Shown here: positions 46,597 to 57,733 of the stretch, piece after piece
How the letters are laid out: each line of letters begins with the position of its first letter
Numbering within the stretch: position 1 is the first letter of the stretch
Origin: Pseudomonadota bacterium
GTDB lineage: Bacteria > Pseudomonadota > Gammaproteobacteria > Burkholderiales > Methylophilaceae
NCBI GenBank assembly: GCA_029781535.1
Contig: JAKOWL010000250.1
Location: 34,711-98,710, forward strand
Length of the DNA: 64,000 nt
Reading direction: 5' to 3'
Program-made: the position numbers and the translations under genes
The notes under the pieces: generated by a model
What the model saw: the letters and a program-made list of their open reading frames with translations, nothing else
Told to the model about the DNA's origin: nothing
Database searches by the model: none

Positions 46597-48285
46597 TTAA
46601 GAAACCAGCAACAAGTAAATCAGTAAAAAATTCAGCAACATCGAAAAAATGGCGATCCACTGCCACTTGACTAATCTGGCACGCGCAATCAATGGGGTGC
46701 GTTGTACTGCAATCGGCTTAAATTCACCATGCTCTAGCGCCAGCAACATTTCATCCGCAGTTTCAAAGCGCTTGTCCACATCATGTGCCACCGCCTTGAG
46801 GACAATATTTTCCAGCCAGCTTGGAATTTCCGGCCTATACCTAGTTGGCCTTGTTGGCTCGCCAAACCGCGGCGTCTGGAAAGGCTCAATCTCGCCATAT
46901 GGGTATTTTCGTGTAAGCAGATAATATAAAGTCACACCCGCCGCATATATGTCTGTGGCGATATTTGCCGTGCCCCCCGCGAAAAGCTCTGGTGCCATAA
47001 AGCTGGGCGTCCCAGGGTTTTCCATCTCTTCCGGCATATCTGTCATGGTGTTGAGGGCAACGCCTAAATCCAGAATACGCAAGCGCTGGTCACTGCCTAT
47101 GTGAATATTCGCAGGCTTAATATCGCGATGCACGATATTCAATCTATGTAACATACTTAAACCACGCATCATATCCACACCGATTTTGGCTACACCATTC
47201 ACTGTGAAGTGATGTCCGCTATCAATACGCTGCTGCAAGGTAGCACCTTCGTGCCAAGTCATTACAAAATACAGGTATTTACGTTGCGCTGGCCCCAATG
47301 GCAGAATCTGCGGCATAGCCTGTGAGACCACGCGCTTAGTCAACCATTCTTCATTCAACAATGCCTGGCAACTTTGCTTGTCCTCAGCTAATACCGGTTG
47401 CAATGTTTTCAGCACAAACAACTGGCCATTTTGGCTACGTACTTTGTATAGCAGGGTAGCGCGCGAGTCATGCAAAACCTCCTGCACCTCAAACCCATCC
47501 AGCACATCACCCACCTTGAGTTTTGGCGGAACCGGCAGCGACTGAGCATCTGCCAACACATCACTTAGGCTATCTTCACCGATGTCTTGAACCCGCACCA
47601 CCAATGCAGAAGCATTGTCTTGCCCTCCCTTAGCCAAGGCGTTTTTGGTAAGTTCGTCTGCTACCATCTGCGGGCTATCATACAGCATCATGGCGCGATG
47701 GATAGCCTCTTCACCAAGCGGCTCCCATACGCCATCACTCATGATGGCAAAAACATCACTCGTCTCCAGCAATCCGTCGGCATAATCCACACTTAAGTGA
47801 TTATCCAACCCAACGGCTCGCTTCAGCACATGACGCATCTCCGGGTTGTCCCATACATGATCTACCGTCAACTGCTTCAGCGATTTATTTCTCAGCAGGT
47901 AAATACGTGTATCTCCGACATGCGCTAGATAATAACGCTGGCCGCGCAATACTATCAGCGATAGTGTAGCGGCCATTCCAGCCAAATCGCGGTTGGCACT
48001 AGCTTGCGCCAGTACCCAACGGTTTGCCGCAGTAAGCACTTTGTCTAACGCAGCATGCGGCTCCCAAGTATCAGGCGTGGCGTAATAATCAGCCGAAACC
48101 GAACGCACAGTCATTTCCGAAGCCTCAGCACCACCCTCATTACCACTCACGCCATCAGCCACAGCCAATAAGGCGCCTTTTATTTTGAGTTGATCTTTAT
48201 TGGGTGTCACAACGCCAATATAGTCCTCATTACGTTTACGCGGGCCAATCTGACTGGATTGGCCGATTTCAAATTTAAGGGGCAT
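46597..48285 (-). CDS. Bifunctional PP2C-type phosphatase / Ser-Thr protein kinase, C-terminal TM tail
   Basis: VADGVSGNEGGAEAS, HVGDTRIYLLR, MSDGVWE (PP2C); NIVHRDIKPANIHIG, ILDLGVAL, GTPSFMAPELF (kinase); terminal FSMLLNFLLIYLLLVS. Confidence 0.92.
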   Translation of the reverse strand: MPLKFEIGQSSQIGPRKRNEDYIGVVTPNKDQLKIKGALLAVADGVSGNEGGAEASEMTVRSVSADYYATPDTWEPHAALDKVLTAANRWVLAQASANRDLAGMAATLSLIVLRGQRYYLAHVGDTRIYLLRNKSLKQLTVDHVWDNPEMRHVLKRAVGLDNHLSVDYADGLLETSDVFAIMSDGVWEPLGEEAIHRAMMLYDSPQMVADELTKNALAKGGQDNASALVVRVQDIGEDSLSDVLADAQSLPVPPKLKVGDVLDGFEVQEVLHDSRATLLYKVRSQNGQLFVLKTLQPVLAEDKQSCQALLNEEWLTKRVVSQAMPQILPLGPAQRKYLYFVMTWHEGATLQQRIDSGHHFTVNGVAKIGVDMMRGLSMLHRLNIVHRDIKPANIHIGSDQRLRILDLGVALNTMTDMPEEMENPGTPSFMAPELFAGGTANIATDIYAAGVTLYYLLTRKYPYGEIEPFQTPRFGEPTRPTRYRPEIPSWLENIVLKAVAHDVDKRFETADEMLLALEHGEFKPIAVQRTPLIARARLVKWQWIAIFSMLLNFLLIYLLLVS

Positions 48286-52074: not shown

Positions 52075-52090
52075 TGCAATATGCATGCCA
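52075..52090 (-). promoter_or_regulatory. Candidate sigma54 promoter of nirB
   Basis: Minus strand TGGCATG-CATA-TTGCA, correct GG-N10-GC spacing. Confidence 0.7.
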
Positions 52091-52220: not shown

Positions 52221-53687
52221 TTAGAACGTATACATAGCAGTCAGCCAGAGTTTCTCGGTATCACGGATACGTCCACGATTGCCCGCTACGTTGTTAGCTG
52301 TGTTAGCAGCTGCGGCATAATGGTCATCTTCACTATATTTCCCGTATTCGACTTTGGCCATCCAGTTCTTGTTGACGTTATATGTCGCAGCCACATTCCA
52401 TTCAGTGCCATATTTGTCACCATTCGTCTTAGTACCGCTGCCCACGGTATAAAAATCTTTATCTGATTTGATCACGTGGTAATCTGCAAAAAACAGAATG
52501 TCATCCCATTTATAAGTCGCTGTCACGAAAGTGTCCTGTATACCCTGTCTTGGTGTTGCCAGAAACTTATCCACCCACCCCTGGAACAGGTGATTAGTGC
52601 CCAATGGGGTCTGAAAAGCATATTTACTGTCATTGCTAGACAACAGTTCCTGGTCGGCACGAATCGTGAAATTATCGATACCAACACCACCCCCCACTTT
52701 GTAGTAATGCGCATCTATACGCTTGTCCCCGCTTTGATAGTCTGTCTGTTTAGCATATTCAGCGGTGTAAAGCGCCCTCAGGTTTGGGTTGAATGGGTGT
52801 ATGCCATCCAGACGCAACCCGAGAATCTTGTTGGACTGGTCTGCGGATGCATTGGGCTTACCATTATTGTTGAGCGTGCCTGCGCCAAACCAGGCGTTAC
52901 CAAAACCCAAATCTTCAAAACCATCCAGATAAGCATAGCCAATCAGGTTCTCAGTAGGTGAAATACGATATTTAACATTAGCAATCTCGAGCGCACCTTC
53001 ATCGCGGTTCTTGGTAGTGATTTGTCTCACACGCTCAAAGTGAGCCAAAAAGACCTCTGTATCAGGAATGCTTTTATTCAATACCGAAACTCCATCAAAC
53101 ACTTGCATTACTTGGCGGAAACCAATATCCCCGATGAACCGAACGTTATCCAGGTTGACTTGTTGTCGGCCAAGACGAAATTTGGTGTTTCTGATCCCCG
53201 TCCAATCGATATAAAGTTGATTGATTCCTGTATATGTCGGATCGACAATCTTTGCATATTCCACGGTTCTGATTTGGTTAGAAGCACCATTGATGAGCGT
53301 GTTATTGGTGCTATCGTTAAAGTTATCTACAATTTTTGTCACATCTATCAACTGCGCTGCAAAACTAAAGTTTTTGTAAGGTGCTGTTTGCCAGCCTATC
53401 AAGCTGCGCAGTGTTAGTCCCTCGGCATCTTTGAGCTCTTGATTCGCAGTTGGATTAGGAGTTGTACCCACGATAGTTGTCGGCTGCAGACCATCTTGAT
53501 CCACATGCTCATAACGCAACCTGAAGCTGGTCAAATTCTTGCCTTGTTTTACCGAGTCCATAAAAGTATATTCATCTTCAGAGTGTGTTACGGCCTCTTC
53601 AGCAAGTGCCGCATATGAGAACGCTGCCAGCGCCATGCCTAAAGCAAATGCAAGCTTGGATTGATTAAAAATATTTAAAGATTTCAT
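52221..53687 (-). CDS. Outer-membrane porin-like beta-barrel protein (alginate-export-like)
   Basis: Signal peptide ...ALGMALAAFSYAALAEEA; RLGRQQVNLDNVRFIGDIGFRQVMQVFDGV; C-terminal aromatic KLWLTAMYTF. Confidence 0.82.
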   Translation of the reverse strand: MKSLNIFNQSKLAFALGMALAAFSYAALAEEAVTHSEDEYTFMDSVKQGKNLTSFRLRYEHVDQDGLQPTTIVGTTPNPTANQELKDAEGLTLRSLIGWQTAPYKNFSFAAQLIDVTKIVDNFNDSTNNTLINGASNQIRTVEYAKIVDPTYTGINQLYIDWTGIRNTKFRLGRQQVNLDNVRFIGDIGFRQVMQVFDGVSVLNKSIPDTEVFLAHFERVRQITTKNRDEGALEIANVKYRISPTENLIGYAYLDGFEDLGFGNAWFGAGTLNNNGKPNASADQSNKILGLRLDGIHPFNPNLRALYTAEYAKQTDYQSGDKRIDAHYYKVGGGVGIDNFTIRADQELLSSNDSKYAFQTPLGTNHLFQGWVDKFLATPRQGIQDTFVTATYKWDDILFFADYHVIKSDKDFYTVGSGTKTNGDKYGTEWNVAATYNVNKNWMAKVEYGKYSEDDHYAAAANTANNVAGNRGRIRDTEKLWLTAMYTF

Positions 53688-53725: not shown

Positions 53726-54526
53726 TTAAGCAGCTTTCTTGGCATGGCGCTCGTAAAGGAAACGCAACACCTCGCTACGTAAATGGTTGTAGGTTGCATC
53801 CTCTGCCAAGGCTAGGCGGTTACGCTGTTTTGGCAGGCTAACATCCAGAATCTCGCCTATCGTTGCGGAAGGCCCGTTGGTCATCATCACAATACGGTCT
53901 GAAAGCAATACAGCCTCATCCACATCATGCGTCACCATGACCGCTGTACAATTCTTTTCCGTCATGATGCGCATCAATTCATCCTGCAGATTGGCACGGG
54001 TCAACGCATCCAGCGCACCAAACGGTTCATCCAGCAGTAACACTTTTGGCTCCATTGCCAATGCCCGCGCTATACCTACCCGCTGTTTCATCCCACCTGA
54101 TATCTCATGCGGCCTTTTCTCAGCGGCATGTGTAAGCCCCACCAGCTTAAGTGCTGCATACGCACGCGCTTCCAGTTGCATGCTGGTTTCAGATTCAAAA
54201 ACGCGCTCTACAGCAAGATATACATTTTCAAAGCAGGTTAACCAAGGTAACAAGGAGTGGTTCTGAAACACGACCGCACGCTCAGGCCCTGGCCTAGCAA
54301 TCTCGCGGCCAGCACAGAATAAATGGCCTGAGGTAGGTTCTAACAGCCCAGCGATCAGGTTCAATACCGTGGACTTGCCACAACCAGAGTGGCCGATGAT
54401 GGAGACGAACTCGCCCTGGTCAATACTCAGGTTGATATTATTCAATGCTTCAAACGTACCTTTTTTGGTCACGAACTTCATACCTACATTTTCGAGGTAT
54501 ACATATTTTTCGATTGGTTTTTCCAT
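53726..54526 (-). CDS. nrtC: Nitrate ABC transporter ATP-binding protein
   Basis: SIIGHSGCGKSTVLNLIAGL; HEISGGMKQRVGIARALAMEPKVLLLDEPFGALDALTR; start at MEKPIEK. Confidence 0.92.
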   Translation of the reverse strand: MEKPIEKYVYLENVGMKFVTKKGTFEALNNINLSIDQGEFVSIIGHSGCGKSTVLNLIAGLLEPTSGHLFCAGREIARPGPERAVVFQNHSLLPWLTCFENVYLAVERVFESETSMQLEARAYAALKLVGLTHAAEKRPHEISGGMKQRVGIARALAMEPKVLLLDEPFGALDALTRANLQDELMRIMTEKNCTAVMVTHDVDEAVLLSDRIVMMTNGPSATIGEILDVSLPKQRNRLALAEDATYNHLRSEVLRFLYERHAKKAA

Positions 54527-54548
54527 GTTGTTTCCTTCCAGCATGTAT

Positions 54549-55481
54549 TTATTCGTAAGAAAAGCGTTTGGCGATGAGCAGCAGCGATTGCTCCAGCAGC
54601 AATCCGATGATCCCCACCACAAATATCGCGATGATGATGTGTTCCACCACCAGATTGTTCCACTCGTCCCATACCCAGAAGCCAATCCCTGCACCACCGG
54701 TCAGCATCTCTGCGGCCACAATTACCAGCCACGCTGTGCCAATGGACAATCGAATGCCGGTCATCATGTATGGCAACACGCTAGGGAACAGAATTTTGGT
54801 GACGATCTTCCACTCACTCAGGTTAAGTACCTTGGCCACATTCATGTAATCTTGTGGCACTTTGGATACGCCCACGGCAGTGTTGATAATCATTGGCCAT
54901 ATCGCAGTGATGAAAATCACCCAGATTGCGGCTGGGTTTGCCGCCTTGAACACCAGCAAACCTATAGGCAGCCAAGCCAGTGGTGAAACAGGGCGTAGCA
55001 AGCTAATGATGGGGGATGTCATGCGTGCCAGGAACTCGAAACGACCAATCATGAAACCAAACGGAATACCCACCAATGCCGCCATACTGAAGCCCAGACC
55101 GACACGTTCAAGGGAATTGAGGATATTCCAGCCAATCCCCTGATCATTTGGGCCATTGATATAAAATGGATCGCTAAACAGTTTTACTGCTGCCTCGAAA
55201 GTCACAATAGGTCCTGGCAGACCCTTGGTAACAGCCGCAATCATGCTCCAGACACCTATCAACAGTGCCAAACCCATCACTGGCGGTATTAACCACTGCA
55301 TAAATGGTTTAACTTTGCTTAAGGCACTGCTTTTAGCAATCGATGCGACTGTGTCTTCTTTAACTGCTGATTTATCCTCAACAATCTGTACTGCAGCCAT
55401 ACCCGGTTTCGATTCAATGGGTTTTTCTTCAGTTTTTGATTGCATAGGTAAACCTTCCTTGCGTAGTGGCACAACACTCAT
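54549..55481 (-). CDS. nrtB: Nitrate ABC transporter permease
   Basis: LRPVSPLAWLPIGLLVFKAANPAAIWVIFITAIWPMIINTAVGV. Confidence 0.92.
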   Translation of the reverse strand: MSVVPLRKEGLPMQSKTEEKPIESKPGMAAVQIVEDKSAVKEDTVASIAKSSALSKVKPFMQWLIPPVMGLALLIGVWSMIAAVTKGLPGPIVTFEAAVKLFSDPFYINGPNDQGIGWNILNSLERVGLGFSMAALVGIPFGFMIGRFEFLARMTSPIISLLRPVSPLAWLPIGLLVFKAANPAAIWVIFITAIWPMIINTAVGVSKVPQDYMNVAKVLNLSEWKIVTKILFPSVLPYMMTGIRLSIGTAWLVIVAAEMLTGGAGIGFWVWDEWNNLVVEHIIIAIFVVGIIGLLLEQSLLLIAKRFSYE

Positions 55482-55510
55482 GGTGGGCTCCCAAATATAG
55501 TCTAGTAAAA

Positions 55511-56803
55511 TTAAGCCTTGATCTTGAACCCTGCTGCATAGGCAGATGGATTGCTGCCATCCCATACGACACCATCCATCAGCTTGGAAGAACGCATCTG
55601 TTTTTTCGGTACACTTACTCCTACTTGTGTTGCAGCTTGTGTATACAAATCGATATGATTAACCTTCTTGGCAACAGCCAAATAGTCCGGGTCTGACTTC
55701 AACATGCCCCAGCGTTTATGCTGTGTCATGAACCACATACCATCAGACAGGTACGGGAACGGCACGGCACCGTCATTGAAGAATTTCATGTAGTTCGGGT
55801 CCTTCCATTTTTTACCGTTACCATTGTCATAATCACCAAGAAAACGGCCTAAAATCACATCTTTTGGTGCATTGACATAAGCCTTGCCGGAAATCAGTTC
55901 TGCCACACTGGCACGGTTAACAGAAGCGTCGATATATTTGCAAGCCTCCAACACTGCCATAATCATGGCACGGGCCGTATTAGGATATTTGGCAACAAAT
56001 TCGGCAGTAGTGCCCAACACTTTTTCCGGATGGTCTGTCCAGATATCCTGACTTGTTGCGACTGTATAACCTACTTTGTCGTAGATGGCGCGGGCATTCC
56101 AAGGCTCACCGACACAGAAGCCATCCATATTGCCAATACGCATATTGGCCACCATTTGTGGTGGCGGCACCACGATAGTTTTCACGTCCTTGATTGGGTC
56201 AATGCCATTGGCTGCCAACCAGTAGTTCAGCCACATCGCGTGTGTGCCGGTCGGAAATGTCTGTGCAAACGTGTAATCACGGTTTTCATTTTCAATCAGA
56301 CGCTTCAAGCTTTTGCCGTCTTTAACCCCTTTTTCCTTGATCTGATTGGACAAGCTGATACCCTGGCCGTTATTGTTCAAAGACATCAGCACCGCCATAT
56401 CTTTTTGCTGACCACCAACACCCATTTGCACACCGTAGACCAAACCATAAAGCACATGTGCAGCATGCAGTTCCCCATTTACTACCTTATCACGCACACC
56501 TGCCCAGCTTGCTTCCTTACTAGGTGTGATTTTGATTCCGTATTTCTTGTCAAAACCCATTTCAGCTGCGACGACAATCGGCGCACAATCGGTCAACGGG
56601 ATAAATCCTATCTTCACTTCAGTGAGCTCAGGCGCATCTGAACCTGCAGCCCAAGCGCTACTGCGTATTCCGGCTGGTACGATATTCATCATGGCTGCCG
56701 CTCCAAACGCACCTGCAACAGCCTGTTTGAAAAAGCCTCTTCGGCTGGCATCCATCTGGTTTGCAGATTCGATCTTGGCAATCTTTTTGGCGCTTTCACT
56801 CAT
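55511..56803 (-). CDS. nrtA: Nitrate ABC transporter substrate-binding protein (Tat signal)
   Basis: DASRRGFFKQAVAGAFGAAAMMN; EVKIGFIPLTDCAPIVVAAEMGFDKKYGI. Confidence 0.93.
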   Translation of the reverse strand: MSESAKKIAKIESANQMDASRRGFFKQAVAGAFGAAAMMNIVPAGIRSSAWAAGSDAPELTEVKIGFIPLTDCAPIVVAAEMGFDKKYGIKITPSKEASWAGVRDKVVNGELHAAHVLYGLVYGVQMGVGGQQKDMAVLMSLNNNGQGISLSNQIKEKGVKDGKSLKRLIENENRDYTFAQTFPTGTHAMWLNYWLAANGIDPIKDVKTIVVPPPQMVANMRIGNMDGFCVGEPWNARAIYDKVGYTVATSQDIWTDHPEKVLGTTAEFVAKYPNTARAMIMAVLEACKYIDASVNRASVAELISGKAYVNAPKDVILGRFLGDYDNGNGKKWKDPNYMKFFNDGAVPFPYLSDGMWFMTQHKRWGMLKSDPDYLAVAKKVNHIDLYTQAATQVGVSVPKKQMRSSKLMDGVVWDGSNPSAYAAGFKIKA

Positions 56804-56831: not shown

Positions 56832-56888
56832 AAAGGCGTCTTGAGCATGCGGCAGCACGAAGCCTACCTACATATTCAAGACGCCTTT
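56832..56888 (-). terminator. Conditional intrinsic terminator in nrtA leader
   Basis: 13-bp perfect basal stem AAAGGCGTCTTGA / TCAAGACGCCTTT with extra inner pairing and T-tract. Confidence 0.88.
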
Positions 56889-56959
56889 GTCTCTATTTAA
56901 AACGAAATACCAACCTTGGCATTTCTAACTTTTGTGTCACCCGCCATTGGGAAACACAA
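56832..56959 (-). promoter_or_regulatory. ANTAR (NasT) antitermination leader: two hexaloop hairpins plus intrinsic terminator
   Basis: P1 TTGTGTTTCCC-AATGGC-GGGTGACACAA; P2 GAAATGCC-AAGGTT-GGTATTTC; both loops A at 1, G at 4; then AAAGGCGTCTTGA...TCAAGACGCCTTTTTT. Confidence 0.88.
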
Positions 56960-56991: not shown

Positions 56992-57570
56992 CTACAAAAT
57001 CAGCATTTTTGCCGCATCTATCAATTGTCCTGACAAATCCGCCAATTTCATGTTTTTTTTCATCGCCATGCTGCGCAACAGGCTATAAGCCTCGTCTTCA
57101 TCCAAATTGCGCTGCTTCATGAGTAACCCTTTTGCCTGCTCTACTACTTTGCGCTCTTCGAGTTTTAGCTTCGTCAGCGCCAACTCTTCACGTAAGTTAT
57201 TGAATTCTTCAAATCTGGCAATTGCTGCATCTATCACCGGAGTCAACCTTTCTGTGGGAATATTACCGACCACATAAGCACTCACACCTGCTTGTGTCGC
57301 CGCACGAATCTTGTCCTTATCTCCATCATGCGTAAACATTACCACAGGGCATCCTGCATTCATGGTCATTACACATACATTCTCCAGGGCATCACGATTT
57401 GGCGATTCCATATCCATGATCACTATATCCGGCTTCAACCGTGCACACTGATCCTCGATATTTATCGCATTCTTGATATGCGCGACCACCTCGTAACCAT
57501 TATCAACCAATGATTGCTTGAGCGGTTTGCTTCGATCAGGCTCATCGTCGATAATCATTACCCTTAGCAT
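56992..57570 (-). CDS. nasT: ANTAR-domain response regulator/antiterminator NasT
   Basis: MLRVMIIDDEPDRSKPLKQSL receiver; C-terminal KLEERKVVEQAKGLLMKQRNLDEDEAYSLLRSMAMKKNMKLADLSGQLI (ANTAR). Confidence 0.93.
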   Translation of the reverse strand: MLRVMIIDDEPDRSKPLKQSLVDNGYEVVAHIKNAINIEDQCARLKPDIVIMDMESPNRDALENVCVMTMNAGCPVVMFTHDGDKDKIRAATQAGVSAYVVGNIPTERLTPVIDAAIARFEEFNNLREELALTKLKLEERKVVEQAKGLLMKQRNLDEDEAYSLLRSMAMKKNMKLADLSGQLIDAAKMLIL

Positions 57571-57581
57571 GGTCGAACAAA

Positions 57582-57597
57582 AGCAATTGCTATGCCA
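57582..57597 (-). promoter_or_regulatory. Candidate sigma54 promoter of nasT
   Basis: Minus strand TGGCATA-GCAA-TTGCT. Confidence 0.68.
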
Positions 57598-57685
57598 CAC
57601 TATTCAACAATAAATAACCTAATGATTCTAATAGATTAATTACGAATATTCAGAATTCTGATTGTGACAATTAGCGCCTCAGCAA

Positions 57686-57733
57686 TGCACAAAATCAGTG
57701 CAAATGCTCCGAAAAACAGCACCGATTGGCAAA
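57686..57733 (-). promoter_or_regulatory. Candidate NtrC-type enhancer upstream of nasT
   Basis: TGCACAAAATCAGTGCA (57686-57702) plus weak GCACCGATTGGCAAA (57719-57733), centres about 32 bp apart. Confidence 0.55.

Follow-up and report, generated by a model that had tools for sequence, protein, structure and literature searches.

A putative ANTAR antitermination leader with three hexaloops, the last of them on the terminator arm, between nasT and nrtA in a Methylophilaceae bacterium

The dual-hexaloop leaders described for the ANTAR-domain regulators EutV (eutP), NasR (nasF) and AmiR (amiE) carry two hairpins whose hexaloops are closed by a C:G pair and have A at position 1 and G at position 4, with the last hairpin on the 5' arm of a terminator (PMC3369931, PMC8934654, PMC7496416). 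In the described systems this second hairpin, P2, overlaps the terminator, so that binding prevents termination (PMC3369931, PMC3369936, PMC8934654), and antitermination by EutV is abolished when the linker is lengthened by 20 nt (PMC8934654). In the NasS-NasT systems of Paracoccus, Azotobacter, Pseudomonas and Bradyrhizobium, nasT stands by a nitrate-assimilation operon with a hairpin leader and is under nitrogen (NtrC) control; experiments in Paracoccus and Bradyrhizobium support both binding of NasT to the leader and antitermination (PMC3795266, PMC5424462, PMC6759348).

We analysed a 64,000-nt stretch of DNA from a member of the Methylophilaceae (the window), in which a leader on the minus strand is bordered by the nasT stop at 56992 and the nrtA ATG at 56803. 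The locus resembles the systems above in its C:G-closed A1/G4 hexaloops, in the last hairpin on the terminator 5' arm, in its ANTAR-domain regulator and in the place of nasT by a nitrate-assimilation operon, with a nitrogen control of nasT that the sequence implies. It adds to the described two-hexaloop motif a third hexaloop (H1) upstream of the other two (H2 and H3). Unlike the NasS-NasT systems, we found no NasS, the gene behind the leader encodes an exported NrtA, and nitrite reductase belongs to another unit, which has a sigma54-like site of its own. The elements of the leader are as follows.

56932-56959, minus strand: H1, TTGTGTTTCCC-AATGGC-GGGTGACACAA, upstream A1/G4 hexaloop on a 10-bp stem, read directly
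56926-56931, minus strand: linker between H1 and H2, AAGTTA, 6 nt
56904-56925, minus strand: H2, GAAATGCC-AAGGTT-GGTATTTC, second upstream A1/G4 hexaloop, on an 8-bp stem
56878-56893, minus strand: H3, GAGAC[AAAGGC]GTCTT, C:G-closed hexaloop with A1 and G4, the candidate antiterminator hairpin
56876-56888, minus strand: terminator 5' arm, AAAGGCGTCTTGA
56832-56844, minus strand: terminator 3' arm, TCAAGACGCCTTT, followed by a T-tract that reaches 56829

The preliminary description had recognised H1 and H2, as P1 and P2, with a linker of about 6 nt between them and a 13-bp terminator with T-tract ahead of nrtA. Direct reading bears this out: both hairpins lie where they were placed (H1 with a single T.T mismatch in its stem), the linker is AAGTTA (56931-56926), the arms of the 13-bp intrinsic terminator (56832-56888) and its T-tract can be read between nasT and nrtA, and A1 and G4 are present in both loops and kept among relatives. 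What does not stand is the claim that this leader was complete, since the third hexaloop, H3, was overlooked and the claimed P2 ends 15 nt short of the terminator. The window leader has three C:G-closed hexaloops with A1 and G4, namely AATGGC, AAGGTT and AAAGGC. No other hexaloop of the leader is as stable as H1 and H2, and the 192-nt region as a whole folds at -66.5 kcal/mol, versus -43.8 +/- 3.5 for shuffles (z = -6.4).

H3 is the sole hexaloop in the leader to overlap the terminator: the terminator 5' arm consists of the H3 loop, the H3 3' arm and two more bases, while the H3 5' arm (56889-56893) lies outside the terminator. H3 and the terminator are thus predicted to be mutually exclusive. 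Because its loop and 3' arm form the terminator 5' arm, H3 would be the functional P2 of the ANTAR motif and H2-H3 the canonical pair; the P2 of the preliminary description, which ends 15 nt ahead of the terminator, cannot compete with it, and H2 would instead correspond to the P1 hairpin of the canonical dual motif. H1 is then best described as an extra upstream hexaloop, and H1 and H2 as putative upstream binding hairpins. With H3, every anatomical element of the known ANTAR mechanism is present, including the overlap of P2 and terminator. H3 alone is weak (-3.6 kcal/mol, versus -32.7 for the terminator), as expected of a protein-held antiterminator, although this is no proof of one. The spacing is 6 nt between H1 and H2 and 10 nt between H2 and H3; in some relatives H2 and H3 are 27-40 nt apart.

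The neighbourhoods of relatives were first chosen by similarity to the NasT protein, not by the RNA. Most of the family keeps the gene order nasT-leader-nrtABC-porin, and several more distant genera of the order share nasT-leader-nrtABC. An A1/G4 hexaloop on the terminator 5' arm was flagged by script in 15 of the 18 intergenic regions chosen by NasT homology, and the overlap of H3 and terminator was seen by eye in two further regions, L053 and, with a T:G closing pair, L049. The region of a second copy in genome G027 (L039) was covered in part by the 18-region step, and its leader was found separately by a covariance model, R1. In an alignment of 13 sequences (A1), with named structures for the H3 and terminator folds, covariation in both folds exceeds that in shuffled and slid controls. 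Column 70 pairs with column 57 in H3 (AU in 6 sequences, GC in 6, other in 1) and with column 108 in the terminator (UA in 5, CG in 4, AU in 1, other in 3). One base of H3 therefore appears to covary with different partners in two mutually exclusive folds, a signal that partly reflects relatedness, as the sequences with AU and those with GC largely form two related groups. Among relatives, two of the three apical pairs of H2 have changed on both sides, and the equivalents of H1 in the closest relatives (L034-L037, L041) have stems that differ yet pair.

Model R1 includes H2 and H3, whose presence in its matches is thus partly selected for, with H1 outside the model. In the genome of the window it finds a single leader, at 56.7 bits (the next match scores 23.4), and no further leader above noise; a genome search likewise finds one ANTAR protein, NasT, encoded next to the leader, so that leader and ANTAR protein pair one to one. 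R1 matches leaders in 96 of 187 family genomes; ANTAR proteins occur in 98 of the 187, and the two sets of genomes largely coincide. The 30 best-scoring R1 loci yielded 26 leaders that passed a strict H3/terminator test. Each of these 26, selected with the RNA model, has at least one upstream C:G-closed A1/G4 hexaloop; two or more are found in 16 once hairpins such as GCAGCAAAGTTGCTG, which in some relatives lie within the 3'-terminal part of the nasT coding region, are left out, and in 19 if they are counted. The chance in shuffles is 0.043 for one such upstream hexaloop and 0.0008 for two or more. Among the 41 C:G-closed hexaloop hairpins of the 26 leaders with stems of at least 5 bp, 33 carry A1 and G4 where 7.7% would be expected; a few of these 33 fall within the 3'-terminal part of the nasT coding region. 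These counts indicate that a majority of leaders in the family have two A1/G4 hexaloops upstream and that the three-hexaloop form is probably widespread.

A search of Rfam found no significant family in the window, either at the gathering threshold or at E values up to 10; hits to snoR11 and STnc40, and the one to rox2 in L011, were judged chance matches to the terminator hairpin. RF00625 (P11, threshold 70 bits) has no match in the window and scores 35, 32.4 and 31.7 bits in the family leaders L013, L014 and L015, and H2-H3 of the window reaches 17.2 bits (E 0.76) with RF03032 (narK RNA), versus a threshold of 43.2 bits. Both entries nevertheless align with leaders of this class and resemble the one in the window. 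RF00625, named Pseudomonas sRNA P11, has GGAC[AAAGGC]GTCC on the terminator arm and a sigma54-like site upstream, as in the window class, but stands directly before nirB, whereas the window leader stands before nrtA; P11 is reported to regulate the NirB/NirD/NasC operon of PA14 (PMC12080996). RF03032 has the loop AACGGC in its first hairpin and an unannotated CGAC[AAAGAC]GUCG, an overlapping hexaloop that its structure line leaves unmarked, and stands before nasA or a NasS/NrtA-type gene, unlike the window leader. The P11 and narK RNA loci (L120-L144), in genomes that we take to be Pseudomonadaceae, both have an ANTAR-type hexaloop on the terminator arm, which suggests that these two Rfam families are leaders of the same ANTAR class.

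The genes and promoter elements around the leader are listed below in the direction of transcription.

57686..57702, minus strand: NtrC-like dyad, TGCAC-N7-GTGCA, upstream of the sigma54 site and named from its resemblance to the consensus
57582..57597, minus strand: sigma54-type promoter, TGGCATAGCAATTGCT, directly upstream of nasT, matching 10 of 12 consensus positions
56992..57570, minus strand: nasT, receiver and ANTAR domains, start at 57570 or 57558, frame open from GTG 57600
55511..56803, minus strand: nrtA, nitrate-type substrate-binding protein (NMT1_2, 3.5e-108), first gene behind the switch
54549..55565, minus strand: nrtB, nitrate ABC permease (TIGR01183 above cut-off)
53726..54697, minus strand: nrtC, nitrate ABC ATPase (TIGR01184 above cut-off), the true start probably lying downstream of the listed ORF start
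52221..53687, minus strand: outer-membrane porin gene, 38 nt behind nrtC

A sigma54 site matching 9-12 of 12 positions lies at about the same place ahead of nasT in nearly all relatives examined. Given this promoter, the leader is probably part of a nasT-nrtABC-porin transcript under sigma54/NtrC control; the 38-nt gap between nrtC and the porin gene holds no terminator, and the porin is the probable last gene of the unit. In the genome of the window we found no sigma54-type or close sigma70-type match between nasT and nrtA, and a separate promoter for the leader between nasT and H1 was rejected on this ground; more distant relatives have a second sigma54-like site between nasT and the leader, which this genome lacks. 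The nirB gene is probably outside the control of the leader because a sigma54-like site of its own lies at 52090. The start point predicted for the sigma54 promoter (57540-57600, minus strand) falls about at the nasT start codon, so the nasT mRNA may have no 5' leader or only a very short one. At the end of the nitrate cluster (46597-48285, minus strand) lies a gene for a PP2C phosphatase-protein kinase fusion, which is found again beside nasA in distant relatives.

The adjoining gene does encode an ANTAR protein, as had been claimed: NasT comprises a receiver and an ANTAR domain and aligns with EutV (6WSH/6WW6) over nearly its whole length. Among the EutV residues named as RNA contacts (PMC8934654), R168, M172 and K143 have equivalents in NasT, and N173, R175, R177 and K147 are replaced by K, N, K and Q. 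The receiver has an acceptor-like Asp and the Thr/Ser position; its conserved Lys is Gly in NasT and is absent from all aligned NasT proteins, and the second acidic residue is Asn in the NasT of many relatives. With Lys replaced by Gly, the domain looks like a pseudo-receiver, so that NasT has the pseudo-receiver and ANTAR composition of the NasS-NasT systems. In one relative (L049:7318-12028), a single nrtABC cluster is flanked by two NasT genes, both encoding receiver-ANTAR proteins.

Sister species of the same genus (L154, L155; G004, G016 and others) have no close NasT, and ANTAR proteins of about 430 aa are encoded beside the same leader class. By length, and by sequence in the one case read, these appear to be NasR-like, which suggests a regulator swap on one RNA code within the genus. 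Many same-genus genomes also encode a conserved 77-aa ANTAR-only protein (L157:1234-1467, L158:1314-1547, L160:1348-1581, L161:1303-1536) that lacks the LR..AM positions, RNA contacts in EutV; its gene has neighbours that we take to be radC-like and cstA-like.

A response of NasT to nitrate had been assumed. NasT and its leader are indeed present, but the known sensor, a cytoplasmic NrtA-like NasS, normally encoded next to nasT, was not found in the genome of the window, and a search of the same genome gave no NIT domain; these absences are read from a 94.7% complete draft and so are not absolute. The NMT1_2 matches in this genome are the Tat-type NrtA (signal SRRGFFKQA) and one unrelated signal-bearing binding protein (L003), which was rejected as a NasS on account of its signal peptide, its sulfonate/taurine-type appearance and its position beside an ABC permease. 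A relative assembled as a single contig (G012) has NasT and NrtA only, with no NasS, and nearly all of the 83 family genomes with a strong NMT1_2 match have just one. The exceptions are G027, G160, G144 and G162, in which a signal-less NrtA-like protein is encoded directly behind nasT (L039:8003-9169, L148:8065-9231, L149:6625-7770, L150:1426-2631). In an NrtA/NasS tree, signal-less NrtA-like proteins beside nasT take three separate positions, two inside Tat-NrtA, the placement of the third group being unsure owing to long branches. We interpret this as at least three origins, two of them from Tat-NrtA, the direction being our reading of the tree. The four proteins just listed are nested inside Tat-NrtA, an apparently recent origin of a NasS-like protein.

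Together, these results make it highly likely that the leader is an ANTAR-dependent antitermination leader recognised by NasT, probably inside a sigma54/NtrC-started nasT-nrtABC-porin transcript. By default, polymerase leaving nasT would form the 13-bp terminator and halt ahead of nrtA. When NasT is free to bind RNA, presumably in response to nitrate, it would be captured on the A1/G4 hexaloops of H1 and H2 and would then hold H3 (GAGAC-AAAGGC-GTCTT). Since H3 uses bases of the terminator 5' arm, the terminator could not form while H3 is held, and nrtABC, and the porin gene with it, would be transcribed in the cell from the nasT promoter. The changed EutV contacts, the weakness of H3, the missing NasS, the lack of an Rfam match and the long H2-H3 linkers of some relatives count against this reading. 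Of the earlier proposal of a NasT leader for nrtABC and the porin, the class is retained, in view of the ANTAR neighbour and the kept loops and terminator, and the P1/P2 anatomy, which overlooked H3, is replaced.

Could NasT act on H1 and H2 without any overlapping hairpin, for instance via RNA polymerase, with H3 merely a terminator arm? These two hairpins are the most stable hexaloops, and their 6-nt separation would suit a dual motif. Yet H3 is the best-conserved hexaloop and always lies on the terminator arm, its 5' arm covaries with its 3' arm despite lying outside the terminator, and some relatives keep it where H1 is missing or unrecognised; we consider this alternative very unlikely and have rejected an overlap-free action of the claimed P2. 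Even less probable is an ordinary terminator with hexaloops arising by chance. A strong intrinsic terminator is present, but the excess of hexaloops over shuffles, the A1/G4 bias and the covariation speak against chance, and nrtA needs read-through because no promoter was recognised between nasT and nrtA.

The remaining alternatives accept NasT-dependent read-through and concern its input. In a genome without a detected NasS or NIT protein, NasT might always be active; in Paracoccus, where NasT is held by NasS, a strain mutated in nasS is constitutive (PMC3795266). In that case nrtABC would follow the amount of NasT, that is, NtrC/sigma54 and nitrogen starvation, in keeping with the sigma54 site ahead of nasT. 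A permanently open switch should decay, however, and the terminator, H3 and the loops are kept across NasS-less genomes, while sister species pair a NasR-like protein with the same leader class. We regard an absence of nitrate input as rather unlikely. Phosphorylation of the NasT receiver by a kinase, as for EutV by EutW, finds some encouragement in the acceptor-like Asp and the Thr/Ser position but is hard to reconcile with the absence of the receiver Lys from all aligned NasT proteins, the frequent Asn at the second acidic residue and the lack of an adjacent histidine kinase gene, and seems to us very unlikely.

If read-through by NasT does respond to nitrate, Tat-exported NrtA is the best candidate carrier of the signal. 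The repeated origin of NasS-like proteins inside Tat-NrtA raises the idea that ordinary NrtA is already able to bind NasT, and we tentatively propose, as a possibility that may well prove wrong, that in NasS-less NasT bacteria NrtA itself is the nitrate sensor, its cytoplasmic, pre-export form holding NasT until nitrate binds. The leader class itself is known; what is new relative to the known ANTAR and NasT leaders is the presence of three hexaloops and the absence of NasS. The literature consulted, mostly outside subscription journals, describes neither a three-hairpin ANTAR target nor NrtA as a sensor for NasT.

These findings correct the anatomy of a conserved switch which Rfam misses here: the functional antiterminator would be H3 and not the P2 first described. 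A widespread ANTAR target with three hexaloops also bears on the puzzle that two hairpins are required although a EutV dimer binds a single loop. A NasT lineage that lacks NasS, NasR and NIT leaves two options: NasT acts with no sensing of nitrate, or the sensor is some other protein, NrtA being the simplest choice. Should the latter be true, NrtA, the first product behind the switch, would report nitrate and close a feedback loop, and the combination of an NrtA sensor with a three-hexaloop leader would constitute a circuit of new design.
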